DNA of 64,000 nt from Haloarchaeobius amylolyticus (GTDB taxonomy: Archaea; Halobacteriota; Halobacteria; Halobacteriales; Natrialbaceae), in the NCBI RefSeq assembly GCF_026616195.1, contig NZ_JANHDH010000001.1, positions 1,984,001 to 2,048,000 of the forward strand. The letters are read 5' to 3'. The notes beneath the pieces are model-generated. The model saw only the letters and a program-made list of their open reading frames with translations, ran no database searches and had not been told where the DNA came from. Of this stretch, positions 8,858 through 11,866 are shown one piece after another. Numbering within the stretch: the stretch's first letter is position 1; each line of letters starts with the position of its first letter. A program made the translations under genes and the position numbers.

Positions 8858-8977
8858 ATGACACTGCTCGAACTGCTCGTGATCGCGCTCGTGGTCCTGG
8901 TGGTGCTCGCAATCATCGCGGCGGTCGTCGGCGAGGGCGAACTGGTGATGGAACTCGCGCTGGAGCTCATCGACTGA
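8858..8977 (+). CDS. Micro-protein with one membrane helix (39 aa)
   Basis: A 39-codon open frame starts at the ATG at 8858. Residues 4-24 form one very hydrophobic helix (LELLVIALVVLVVL...), followed by a short acidic amphipathic tail with E and L. A GATATT box about 30 bases upstream would support a leaderless mRNA. Codon choice shows the G/C third-position bias of the flanking genes. No function can be assigned; it resembles single-pass small proteins that attach to larger membrane complexes. Confidence 0.5.
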   Translation: MTLLELLVIALVVLVVLAIIAAVVGEGELVMELALELID

Positions 8978-9028
8978 GACGGCCAGACCGGTCGACGGAA
9001 CCATCCGTACGCTGTCTGACTCGGTGGA

Positions 9029-9035
9029 TTTATTA
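9029..9035 (+). promoter_or_regulatory. TATA box facing the structured region before hef
   Basis: TTTATTA is a good haloarchaeal TATA element. It lies 26-32 bases before 9061, the first base of a perfectly paired fold, and there is no credible start codon at the expected start site near 9057. Hef has a separate box at 9329-9333, so this promoter appears to serve the RNA candidate. Confidence 0.5.
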
Positions 9036-9056
9036 GGGCGCGCATACTTCAACCTG

Positions 9057-9290
9057 TCAGCCACGACGATACGCCGCTTGACGGCGTTCCGGCGACTTCG
9101 GTCGCCGGCAGTGTCGTGGTGATACGGACGACACCGCGCGGCGGACTCCCCCCAACTCTCCCCCCAACCCCCCGCCGTCTGTCGTCTCGTCGTGGCCGAC
9201 CGCGCCGTCTTCACTTTCATCGCGGTCGGCCTCCTCGTCGCCTGCAGCGACGGGTATCGACCCGGCTGGCCGGTTCCGCGACGAGGCCGA
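9057..9290 (+). ncRNA. Candidate structured RNA with a three-way junction
   Basis: No protein gene is convincing here, but the plus strand folds unusually well. CCACGAC (9061-9067) pairs with GTCGTGG (9113-9119) and encloses two perfect hairpins: ACGCCG/CGGCGT (9071-9076/9082-9087) and CCGGCGAC/GTCGCCGG (9089-9096/9101-9108), the second closed by the very stable C(TTCG)G tetraloop. Further on are an 11-bp perfect stem (9194-9204/9221-9231) and a 9-bp stem (9233-9241/9278-9286). GTGTCGT (9111-9117) can instead pair with ACGACAC (9128-9134), excluding the outer stem. A TATA box sits at the right distance upstream. I found no SRP, RNase P, tRNA or box C/D hallmarks. The 3' end is uncertain. High GC makes chance stems commoner, so this remains a candidate. 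Confidence 0.35.
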
Positions 9291-9323
9291 CACCGGGGAG
9301 CTTCACTTTCACCGTGGTCGGCG
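9210..9323 (+). repeat. Two-copy 22-base direct repeat upstream of hef
   Basis: The copies at 9210-9231 and 9302-9323 both begin TTCACTTTCA and end GGTCGGC, with only three differences in 22 bases and a 92-base period. The second copy lies directly before the hef TATA box; the first forms part of the 11-bp stem at 9194-9231. The core CACTTTCA(C/T) also occurs upstream of the PCNA gene in this window. Confidence 0.5.
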
Positions 9324-9358
9324 AAGTCTTAAACGACGGGAAGCCGAATTCTCGGGCG

Positions 9359-11866
9359 ATGGCTGCCACCGACGAGGCGTCCGTCGAGCACCCGCTGCTC
9401 GCGCCGAACTTCCTCCAGCGCCGGCTCTACCAGTTGCAACTCGCGGGCACGGCGACCGAGGACCACACCCTCGTCTGCCTGCCGACCGGGCTGGGCAAGA
9501 CGACCGTGAGCCTGCTCGTGACCGCGCGGCGACTCGACGAGGTCGGCGGGAAGTCGCTGATGCTCGCGCCGACGAAGCCCCTCGTGCAACAGCACGCGGA
9601 GTTCTACCGCGAGGCGCTGCAGATCCCGGACGACGAGGTCGTCGTGTTCACCGGCGACGTGCGCCCGGACGACCGCGCCGCGCTCTGGGAGGACGCGACC
9701 GTCGTCATGGCGACGCCGCAGGTCATCGAGAACGACCTCGTCGGTGGCAGAATCTCGCTGCGGGACGTGACACACATCACCTTCGACGAGTGCCACCGCG
9801 CGACCGGCGACTACGCCTACAACTACATCGCGGAACGCTACCACCAGGACGCCGCGGACCCCCTGGTGACCGGCATGAGCGCCTCGCCCGGTGGCGACGA
9901 GGAGGAGATACTGGAGGTGTGTGAGAACCTCGGGTTGCGCGAGGTCGAGGTGATGACCGAGGACGACGCCGACGTGGCGGAGTACACCCACGACACCGAG
10001 GTCGAGTGGAAGAAGATCCAACTTCCGGACGAGGTCCTCGAGATACGCGACGGGCTGAACGAGGTCATCGCCGACCGCCTCTCGAAGCTCAAGGAGATCG
10101 GCGTGACGAAGGCCACCTCGCCCGACCTCTCGGAGACCCAGATAAACAAGATATCGGCGCAGTTGCGCCAGATGATGGACAACGACCAGTCGGCGGGCTT
10201 CAAGGGTATGAGCCTGCTCGCGGAGATTCGCAAGCTCCGGACCGCGGTCACCTACGTCGAGACCCAGAGCGTCGAGGCGACCCGCCGGTACTTCGAGCGC
10301 CAGAAGAACGCCGCCCGCGCCTCCGGGGCGTCGAAGGCGAGCCAGCGCATGGTCTCGGAGCCGAAGGTCCGCGAGGCCATCCGGAAGGCCGAGTCCTTCG
10401 ACGACATCCACCCGAAGTACCGCGAGGCGCGCATCCTGCTCGCCCAGACGCTGGGCATCGAGGACGGCGAGCGCGTCATCGTCTTCACCGAATCGAGAGA
10501 CACAGCCGAGGCCCTCACCGAGTTCCTCTCGAACCACTTCGAGACGCGGCGGTTCGTCGGGCAGGGCGACAAGGAGGGCTCGGACGGGATGACCCAGAAA
10601 CAGCAACAGGAGGTCTTAGAGCAGTTCAAGGCCGGCGAGTTCGAGGTGCTGGTCTCGACCTCGGTCGCCGAGGAGGGCCTGGACGTGCCCGAGGTCGACC
10701 TCGTGCTGTTCTACGAGCCGGTCCCGACGGCCATCCGGTCCATCCAGCGCAAGGGCCGGACCGGCCGCCAGGACGAGGGGCGCGTGGTCGTGCTGATGGC
10801 CGAGGACACGCGCGACGAGGCGTACTTCTGGATCTCGCGGCGCAAGGAGAAGCAGATGGAGAACGAGCTCCGCAAGCTCAAGGGCGTCGCCGCGGACATG
10901 GAGGAACAGCTCGACGACTCCCAGCAGAGCCTCGACGCGTTCGCGGGCGGTGACGGGGGCGACGGAAGCGACGAGGCGGCGGCCGAAAGCGCCGCGAGCG
11001 CCGACGGCGGGACCAGCGCGGACACCCAGCCGGGGCTGCAGGAGTTCGGCGCGAGCGACAACGAGGCGGAGGGAGACGGCGAAGACGGCGGCGAGAAAGC
11101 CGACGACGCGGCCGAGACCGCGGCCCAGACCACCGATGCCGAACTCGCCGCGGCCGAACCCGACGAGCCAGACGACGGCGTCGTCGCGGCCGCGGAACCG
11201 CAGGAGGAGGACACGGTCGAGGTCGTCATCGACCAGCGCGAGATGGACTCCTCGATTCCACGGGACCTCTCGACCCGCGAGGACGTGACCACTCGCCTCG
11301 AAACGCTCGCGGTGGGCGACTACGTCCTCTCGGACCGCGTCGCCGTCGAGCGCAAGTCCGTCTCGGACTTCCTCGACACCCTCACCGGCAGCGACCGCTC
11401 CGTCTTCGAGCAGGTCCGGGACATGGCCGGGCACTACGCCCGGCCCATCCTCGTCATCGAGGGCGACGAGAGCCTGCTCGGCTCGCGGGACATCCACCCC
11501 AACGCCATCCGGGGCGCGCTCGCCTCGCTGGCGGTCGACTTCGGCGTGAGCGTCCTGCGGACCGAGGGCGAGGCAGACACCCGGGACCTGCTCGCGGTCA
11601 TCGCGACCAGAGAGCAAGAGAAGAGCGGCCGCGAGGTGTCGGTCCACGGCGAGAAGTCGAAGAAGACCCTGAGCGAACAGCAGGAGTACGTCGTCTCCGC
11701 CATCGCGGACATCGGGCCGGTGACCGCACGGTCGCTGCTGGCTCACTTCGGCACCGTCGAGGAAGTGATGTGCGCGAACGAGGACGACCTCCTGGAGGTC
11801 GACGGCGTCGGCCAGGTGACCGCCGAGCGCATCCGGGAGGTCATCGGGAGCCAGTACGAGCCGTGA
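9359..11866 (+). CDS. hef: Hef: archaeal XPF/FANCM-family helicase-nuclease
   Basis: Hef processes stalled forks and branched DNA. The 835-residue protein has an N-terminal SF2 helicase (Walker A LPTGLGKTT at 41-49; DECHRATG box; SASPGG motif III; QRKGRTGRQ motif VI). A long acidic, low-complexity linker rich in D, E, A and G follows (about 520-620). The C-terminal XPF nuclease has VAVERKSVSDFL (the ERKxxxD active site). The end carries tandem helix-hairpin-helix motifs (IADIGPVTARSLL, LLEVDGVGQVTAERI). The ATG at 9359 is chosen because TTAAA at 9329-9333 fits a leaderless start and the helicase fold begins directly after it. The acidic linker is typical of halophilic Hef. Confidence 0.96.
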   Translation: MAATDEASVEHPLLAPNFLQRRLYQLQLAGTATEDHTLVCLPTGLGKTTVSLLVTARRLDEVGGKSLMLAPTKPLVQQHAEFYREALQIPDDEVVVFTGDVRPDDRAALWEDATVVMATPQVIENDLVGGRISLRDVTHITFDECHRATGDYAYNYIAERYHQDAADPLVTGMSASPGGDEEEILEVCENLGLREVEVMTEDDADVAEYTHDTEVEWKKIQLPDEVLEIRDGLNEVIADRLSKLKEIGVTKATSPDLSETQINKISAQLRQMMDNDQSAGFKGMSLLAEIRKLRTAVTYVETQSVEATRRYFERQKNAARASGASKASQRMVSEPKVREAIRKAESFDDIHPKYREARILLAQTLGIEDGERVIVFTESRDTAEALTEFLSNHFETRRFVGQGDKEGSDGMTQKQQQEVLEQFKAGEFEVLVSTSVAEEGLDVPEVDLVLFYEPVPTAIRSIQRKGRTGRQDEGRVVVLMAEDTRDEAYFWISRRKEKQMENELRKLKGVAADMEEQLDDSQQSLDAFAGGDGGDGSDEAAAESAASADGGTSADTQPGLQEFGASDNEAEGDGEDGGEKADDAAETAAQTTDAELAAAEPDEPDDGVVAAAEPQEEDTVEVVIDQREMDSSIPRDLSTREDVTTRLETLAVGDYVLSDRVAVERKSVSDFLDTLTGSDRSVFEQVRDMAGHYARPILVIEGDESLLGSRDIHPNAIRGALASLAVDFGVSVLRTEGEADTRDLLAVIATREQEKSGREVSVHGEKSKKTLSEQQEYVVSAIADIGPVTARSLLAHFGTVEEVMCANEDDLLEVDGVGQVTAERIREVIGSQYEP

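Follow-up and report, generated by a model that had tools for sequence, protein, structure and literature searches.

A candidate structured small RNA upstream of hef and a second C-rich RNA gene candidate in haloarchaea

Does the gap upstream of hef in Haloarchaeobius amylolyticus contain a gene for a structured RNA, and if so, what might that RNA do? An earlier note on the window (the 64-kb stretch of DNA analyzed here) had proposed a TATA promoter and a new, possibly switch-like haloarchaeal RNA in a gap of about 380 bases. We measured this intergenic gap at 381 nt, from the stop codon of a small ORF (8975-8977) to the hef ATG at 9359. hef itself (9359-11866, + strand; DEAD/helicase C, ERCC4 and HhH domains by Pfam) is a neighbor and lies outside the element. 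The upstream neighbor (8858-8977, + strand) encodes 39 hydrophobic amino acids with an acidic C-terminus. It has no Pfam match. Homologues occupy the corresponding position before hef in G005, G003 and G001, making at least four species of the genus in all. Below, G000 is the genome that holds the window and G005 is one other species of the same genus.

A TATA box and three folded modules

The TATA box of the candidate RNA gene, TTTATTA, is at 9029-9035 on the + strand, where the earlier note had placed it, and the G005 orthologue has the identical sequence. Some 25 nt downstream of it, the fold begins. The expected start, at about 9057-9060, is at the foot of the first stem.

We found three predicted modules, all on the + strand. 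The first (9060-9120) is a three-way junction with an outer stem (9061-9068/9112-9119, plus a G9060-U9120 pair) and two inner stems (9071-9076/9082-9087, and 9089-9096/9101-9108 with a TTCG loop). The three stems described earlier, with the outer one drawn as 9061-9067/9113-9119, are exactly as given there. The second module (9127-9186) is a C-rich hairpin with an outer stem (9127-9133/9180-9186), an inner stem (9138-9144/9172-9178) and a 27-nt loop (9145-9171). This hairpin was absent from the earlier list of stems, yet it holds the best conserved part of the element. The third module (9194-9231) is a hairpin of 11 bp (9194-9204/9221-9231). It is one of two further stems that had been proposed, and is as described there. 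The other, a stem of 9 bp, was not upheld: the stretch that holds it, 9232-9297, folds no more stably than shuffled sequence (z -1.3) and lacks conservation in G005.

We compared the modules to dinucleotide shuffles. The junction (9058-9120) folded at -36.4 kcal/mol, compared to -23.9 +/- 3.1 for 1000 shuffles (z -4.1), and none of the shuffles was as good. In G005, the junction had a z of -3.3. The C-rich hairpin had a z of -3.65 in G000 and -4.4 in G005, and the third hairpin (folded as 9188-9235) had a z of -4.2 in G000 and -3.3 in G005. That is, all three modules scored about -3.3 to -4.4 in both carrier genomes, and the idea of a fold stood up to shuffled controls. The whole region, 9058-9235, had a z of -4.5 in G000. 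Its absolute energy was ordinary: 277 of 1064 other 178-nt stretches of the window fold at least as low. Because such an energy is ordinary for GC-rich DNA, it is the dinucleotide-controlled scores that count.

There is no U-run terminator after the element. The third hairpin could be the 3' domain of the RNA, or it could be a separate element or a duplicated piece of the hef promoter. The hef promoter lies outside the RNA (9302-9333, + strand) and consists of a box, TTCACTTTCACCGTGGTCG, at 9302-9320 and a TATA-like CTTAAA at 9328-9333, with a leaderless start. In 29 genomes of the family (L146-L175), the box TTCACTTTCACCnnGGTA lies about 10 nt before TTAA, also with a leaderless start, and the distance of both box and TTAA from the hef ATG is fixed. 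Boxes like it also precede a few other promoters (L201, L202, L207 and L218). An extra hef promoter box, TTCACTTTCATCGCGGTCG, without a TATA box, overlaps the third hairpin, in its loop and 3' arm (9210-9228, + strand), and is conserved in G005. With at most one mismatch, the G000 genome has only two matches to this box (TTCACTTTCAYCNNGGTCG); the other is the promoter box upstream of hef.

The element does not belong to an Rfam family that we could recognize. With Rfam 15, only one tRNA in the whole window exceeded its gathering cut-off, and the four matches in the region 8980-9370 at E up to 5 were all far below gathering. This agrees with the earlier statement that known RNAs do not match. 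A hammerhead-type ribozyme was considered and rejected, as Rfam gave no match and the junction has no conserved core.

Conservation and distribution of the element

We compared the element in G000 and G005. There are eight substitutions on paired positions and none of the 47 pairs is broken. (One symmetric U-C mismatch, present in stem 3 of G005, is not included in the alignment, A4, or in the count of 47 pairs.) If substitutions were placed at random, 3.6 to 5 broken pairs would be expected on average, and the chance of keeping all pairs is 0.01 if all are transitions and 0.0005 at 67% transitions. Two pairs changed on both sides (C-G to U-A in stem 3, and G-C to A-U at 9127-9186) and four changed by wobble. 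The junction has one compensatory pair and one G-U/G-C change, the C-rich hairpin has a G-U/G-C change at 9138-9178, and in G005 two pairs of the third hairpin have changed from C-G to U-G. Stem 2 itself is identical in G005, with its loop wholly replaced. Thus, the search for compensatory changes that had been proposed gave a positive result. With just two carrier genomes the covariation is thin, and a structure cannot be proved from two sequences.

The same changes bear on the strand. On the - strand, each genome would have two A-C mismatches among these pairs, which makes the + strand the likely RNA.

The element appears to be constrained. In the junction and the C-rich hairpin, 91-93% of aligned positions are identical, compared to 72% at fourfold sites of hef, and the 31 nt from 9138 to 9168 are 100% identical. 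The spacer at 9232-9297 could not be aligned between the two genomes. No reading frame is kept across the element, which has frame-changing indels between G000 and G005. The hef frame is open through the element in both genomes; a conserved extension of hef is excluded because there are indels of 1-4 nt and because the third hairpin is read in different frames.

Two parts of the earlier proposal fared less well. It had suggested that one strand of the outer stem could pair elsewhere, so that the element might switch like a riboswitch. The alternative pairing (9111-9117/9128-9134) drops from 7 pairs to 5 in G005, while the junction stem is kept, and the idea of a switch is therefore without support. 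The element had also been described as an RNA before hef, and a link to hef is not supported: hef has its own conserved leaderless promoter immediately upstream, and four congeners have hef without the element. The central claim, a possible new haloarchaeal RNA transcribed from the TATA box, is supported by the z-scores in two genomes, the compensatory and wobble changes on the + strand and the conserved TATA box, and is further backed by the lack of a conserved reading frame and of an Rfam match.

The element has a narrow distribution. Among the six genomes of the genus, it is found only in G000 and G005, at the same place upstream of hef. It is absent from the hef upstream regions of the four congeners, all of which have an intact hef; in G003, for example, the small ORF is followed by about 45 nt and then the hef promoter. 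A covariance model (R1) searched against 391 genomes of the class recovered only G000 (158 bits) and G005 (134 bits). Thus, the search of relatives that had been suggested earlier found the element at the same site in G005 but nowhere else in these genomes. The remaining R1 matches (32 bits or less; L052-L079) were rejected, since none has the C-rich loop and the best is in an open frame. We also rejected the family-wide DNA matches (L042-L047), which are chance matches, five of them in coding sequence, and a match to the loop with 3 mismatches in G178, which is in coding sequence. Similarity searches of plasmids and phages found no relatives, and a search with the exact C-motif pattern against GTDB and IMG/VR viral contigs gave no haloarchaeon among the matches. 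Because these searches find only G000 and G005, the element was gained in this species pair or kept only by it. Many matches of the contig search in Burkholderiales (L081, L084, L085, L107, L110, L111, L124 and L135) are tandem ACTCCCCCCAA/ACTCCCCTCATTTG repeats, which can be read in frame as DSPQ/DSPH-like units and are unrelated to the haloarchaeal RNA.

A second C-rich RNA gene candidate linked to a Bat-type regulator

The conserved loop, ACUCCCCCCAACUCUCCCCCCAA (9145-9167, + strand; 100% identical in G005), is predicted to be single-stranded. It consists of two copies of CUCCCCCCAA, at 9146-9155 and 9158-9167, and its mean pairing probability is 0.001-0.008 in folds of 133-138 nt from both genomes. 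The C motif of the genus, ACTCCCCCCAAC, is at 9145-9156, inside a hairpin downstream of the 5' structured domain. The GGGGGG opposite 9168-9173, beside the loop, is changed in G005.

The exact complement of the motif, TTGGGGGGAG, has five sites in G000. Two are in the element, and two of the only three sites outside it are in C-rich RNA gene candidates, on the opposite strand. We rejected the idea that these sites are mRNA targets (an ATG beside a G-rich stretch) because there is a conserved promoter on the opposite, C-rich strand.

The loop motif thus led to a second C-rich RNA gene candidate, with a TATA box, a hairpin, C-tracts and two CTAA-N4-TTAG palindromes. G000 has two copies, both on the - strand (C2:105437-105525, locus L230, and C1:518041-518127, locus L179). 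The order of the unit on the C-rich strand is CTCTAATTAATTAG, about 19 nt, CTAAACAGTTAGAAA, TATA/TTAA, CATACGATTAG, a hairpin TGGCGA...TCGCCA and CCCCC tracts, which are CCCCCATACTCCCCCCAACCCCCCCTTCC in the genus of the window. There are two or three C-tracts at variable spacing. The hairpin stem is conserved and has no covariation support because it never varies. The first palindrome is near-invariant, and both are present in both G000 copies. These palindromes are likely operators.

This RNA gene candidate is spread through the family. A covariance model of five copies (R2) found it in 71 genomes, all of the family of the window, at 27-113 bits. A sequence model (R3) detected it, at 1e-10 to 1e-30 apart from weak second copies, in 87 of the 101 family genomes, a count that is partly circular in that R3 was built from 24 of the R2 matches in the same genomes. 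Outside the family, R3 gave just two matches, both weak (2e-5 and 5e-4 per genome) and both in a single other family. These sites (G178:C1:553475-553622 and G218:C1:785241-785388) are possible distant members. In 29 of the 32 loci examined, the main copy lies directly behind a gene for a GAF-BAT-HTH_10 (Bat-type) regulator on the same strand, mostly with a fixed 43 nt from the stop codon to TTAA. A second, unlinked copy is present in the genus of the window; in other genera, tandem pairs occur 320-510 bp apart. The Bat-type protein may control the RNA. The Bat-linked RNA has no Rfam match, a full-text literature search with three pieces of its sequence returned nothing on archaea, and we found no literature on the sequence of either RNA. 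The Bat-linked gene is, on these searches, previously undescribed.

How are the two RNAs related? Both have the layout of a TATA box, a 5' folded domain and exposed C-tracts, and the 16 nt at 9158-9173 (CUCCCCCCAACCCCCC) are identical to part of the Bat-linked copy at C2:105437-105525 (CTCCCCCCAACCCCCC). R2 scored only 11.4 bits on the hef region, all of it from the C-tract, and the hef element is absent from the R3 matches. There are no CTAA-N4-TTAG palindromes upstream of 9029. Because the score comes from the C-tract alone and the palindromes are absent, we did not place the hef element in the Bat-linked family. The two share a design and a C motif, without demonstrable homology. The simplest reason for the shared motif would be a common partner, either a G-rich RNA or a C-binding protein. 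It is also possible that two C-rich stretches resemble each other by chance.

What the C-rich loops may do

Several known systems offer analogies. In Gram-positive bacteria, UCCC loops base-pair with G-rich regions close to start codons; these loops are often redundant, and the RNAs that carry them are often multicopy (PMC3861533, PMC4132741). LhrC of Listeria monocytogenes is a multicopy sRNA with redundant UCCC sites (PMC4132741). Like LhrC, the RNAs described here have several exposed C-rich sites in loops or single strands after stable hairpins, and the Bat-linked family is multicopy, both tandem and dispersed, with a conserved promoter that has predicted regulator sites. Unlike LhrC, they have archaeal TATA promoters and longer C-runs (C5-C6), and there is no sequence relation. 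The unpaired C-rich motif of the LhrC class is present here in predicted folds. As in RNAIII and the Rsa sRNAs of Staphylococcus aureus (PMC3861533), C-rich apical loops are the presumed seeds and the motif is common to unrelated RNAs of one genome. Those RNAs block Shine-Dalgarno sites, unlike what we envision here, and are not homologous. sRNA132 of Haloferax volcanii (PMC6560208) is also an intergenic haloarchaeal sRNA with its own promoter, found in one genus between the same flanking genes. The text of that paper describes no C-run, and of the two only sRNA132 is known from experiments, in which it pairs with the 3'-UTR of a phosphate-transporter mRNA. Denitrification promoters of Haloferax have a CGAA-N4-TTCG semi-palindrome (PMC10062603), and there, Bat-type regulators, NarO among them, have been proposed to read anaerobic promoters (PMC11218638). 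The CTAA-N4-TTAG sites at the Bat-linked RNA resemble NarO/DmsR operators in being paired palindromes with the same spacing. They differ in the half-site, and the regulator here keeps a GAF domain that NarO and DmsR lack.

We think it quite probable, from the folds and their conservation, that a real structured RNA gene extends from 9057 to about 9190, perhaps to 9235. If so, the C-rich loop is likely the functional site, and pairing with G-rich mRNA, by analogy with the systems above, seems somewhat more plausible than protein binding. The hef-linked RNA would be about 130-180 nt long, transcribed on the + strand from its own TATA promoter, with a 3' end at about 9190 or 9235. The 5' three-way junction would confer stability. 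The second hairpin, whose structure is supported by the data, would present two exposed CUCCCCCCAA stretches as seeds, and the loop would act in trans by pairing with G-rich stretches of mRNAs and so change their translation or stability. By its design, rather than by proven descent, we group it with the Bat-linked RNA gene candidate, in which a 5' hairpin precedes the same C motif. Most haloarchaeal mRNAs are leaderless, and Shine-Dalgarno sites matter little in them. Thus, blocking of Shine-Dalgarno sites is unlikely to be the usual route, and the targets may lie elsewhere. The 3'-UTR target of sRNA132 (PMC6560208) is one such case. By analogy, the most likely reading is that both RNAs are trans-acting C-rich small RNAs like LhrC or RNAIII that pair with G-rich mRNA. 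The explanation in full, a trans-acting sRNA with a C-rich seed, is our best but a tentative one, and we hold it at less than an even chance.

Other explanations have to be weighed against it. The C-loops of both RNAs might instead bind a pyrimidine-preferring protein of the KH, cold-shock or Sm type and serve as sponges or scaffolds like CsrB/RsmZ. The two identical tandem motifs in the hef-linked loop would suit repeated sites, the Bat-linked RNA has its two or three variably spaced C-tracts, and the motif is kept at 100% while the tract lengths vary in that family. However, we identified no candidate C-binding protein and, to our knowledge, archaea do not have a CsrA system, which counts against such a sponge; we consider protein binding unlikely. 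That the region is functionless intergenic DNA, its structure and similarity due to GC richness and recent common ancestry, we find rather improbable. Only two species carry it, and GC-rich DNA does fold well, as the 277 equally low stretches attest, but each module has a dinucleotide-controlled z of about -4 in both genomes, identity exceeds that at synonymous sites of hef next to a spacer that cannot be aligned, and eight substitutions in stems cost no pairs.

Two readings tie the element to hef, and we regard each as very unlikely. It could be a long 5' leader of hef, made from the distal promoter and regulating in cis as a riboswitch or attenuator. It is on the same strand, directly upstream and with no terminator seen, and the extra box at 9210-9228 connects it physically to the hef promoter. 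Against this are hef's own leaderless promoter, with a box conserved through the family, the four congeners with an intact hef and no element, the alternative pairing that is not conserved, and the spacer at 9232-9297, which is neither conserved nor structured. Alternatively, the element could work as DNA, with G-quadruplex or i-motif tracts, cruciforms or operators that modulate the hef promoter, given its G6 tracts on the - strand, its inverted repeats and the duplicate box. Changes of the G-U type in the stems keep pairing only in an RNA of the + strand, though; the TATA box is at the right distance from the first stem, and the GGGGGG opposite 9168-9173 is not kept in G005. Least probable is a coding function, whether as extra N-terminal sequence of hef or as a short peptide (GTG 9116 frame, ..GGLPPTLPP..). 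In G000 the open hef frame reaches back to about 9020 (948 aa), and the LPPTLPP stretch is kept in G005. Past that stretch the conserved DNA of the third hairpin is read in different frames in the two genomes, the junction has indels of 1-4 nt, the product would be Arg-rich, unlike haloarchaeal proteins, and congeners have no extension (open frames of 808-818 aa).

If both RNAs are indeed trans-acting C-rich small RNAs, they might be parts of one network in haloarchaea of the family. Acting through twin CTAA-N4-TTAG operators, a Bat-type sensor-regulator would drive a conserved C-rich RNA present in one or two copies, the hef-linked RNA would be a younger member with the same seeds and another promoter, and both would control G-rich mRNAs with no need for Shine-Dalgarno sites. 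All three parts together make a doubtful proposition.

The mechanism is understood for only a few small RNAs of archaea, and what is known of most haloarchaeal candidates comes solely from transcript data. In this case, comparative evidence provides a well-supported candidate sRNA gene of narrow distribution, folded and with a defined exposed seed, and the clue from its C-rich loop leads to a broader RNA family: a family-wide RNA gene candidate with the same seed, a likely adjoining regulator gene and likely operators. These findings suggest a system of small-RNA control that is new for these microbes. They also allow a direct test of whether, and with which pairing partners, archaea whose mRNAs are mostly leaderless employ RNAs with C-rich seeds as Gram-positive bacteria do.
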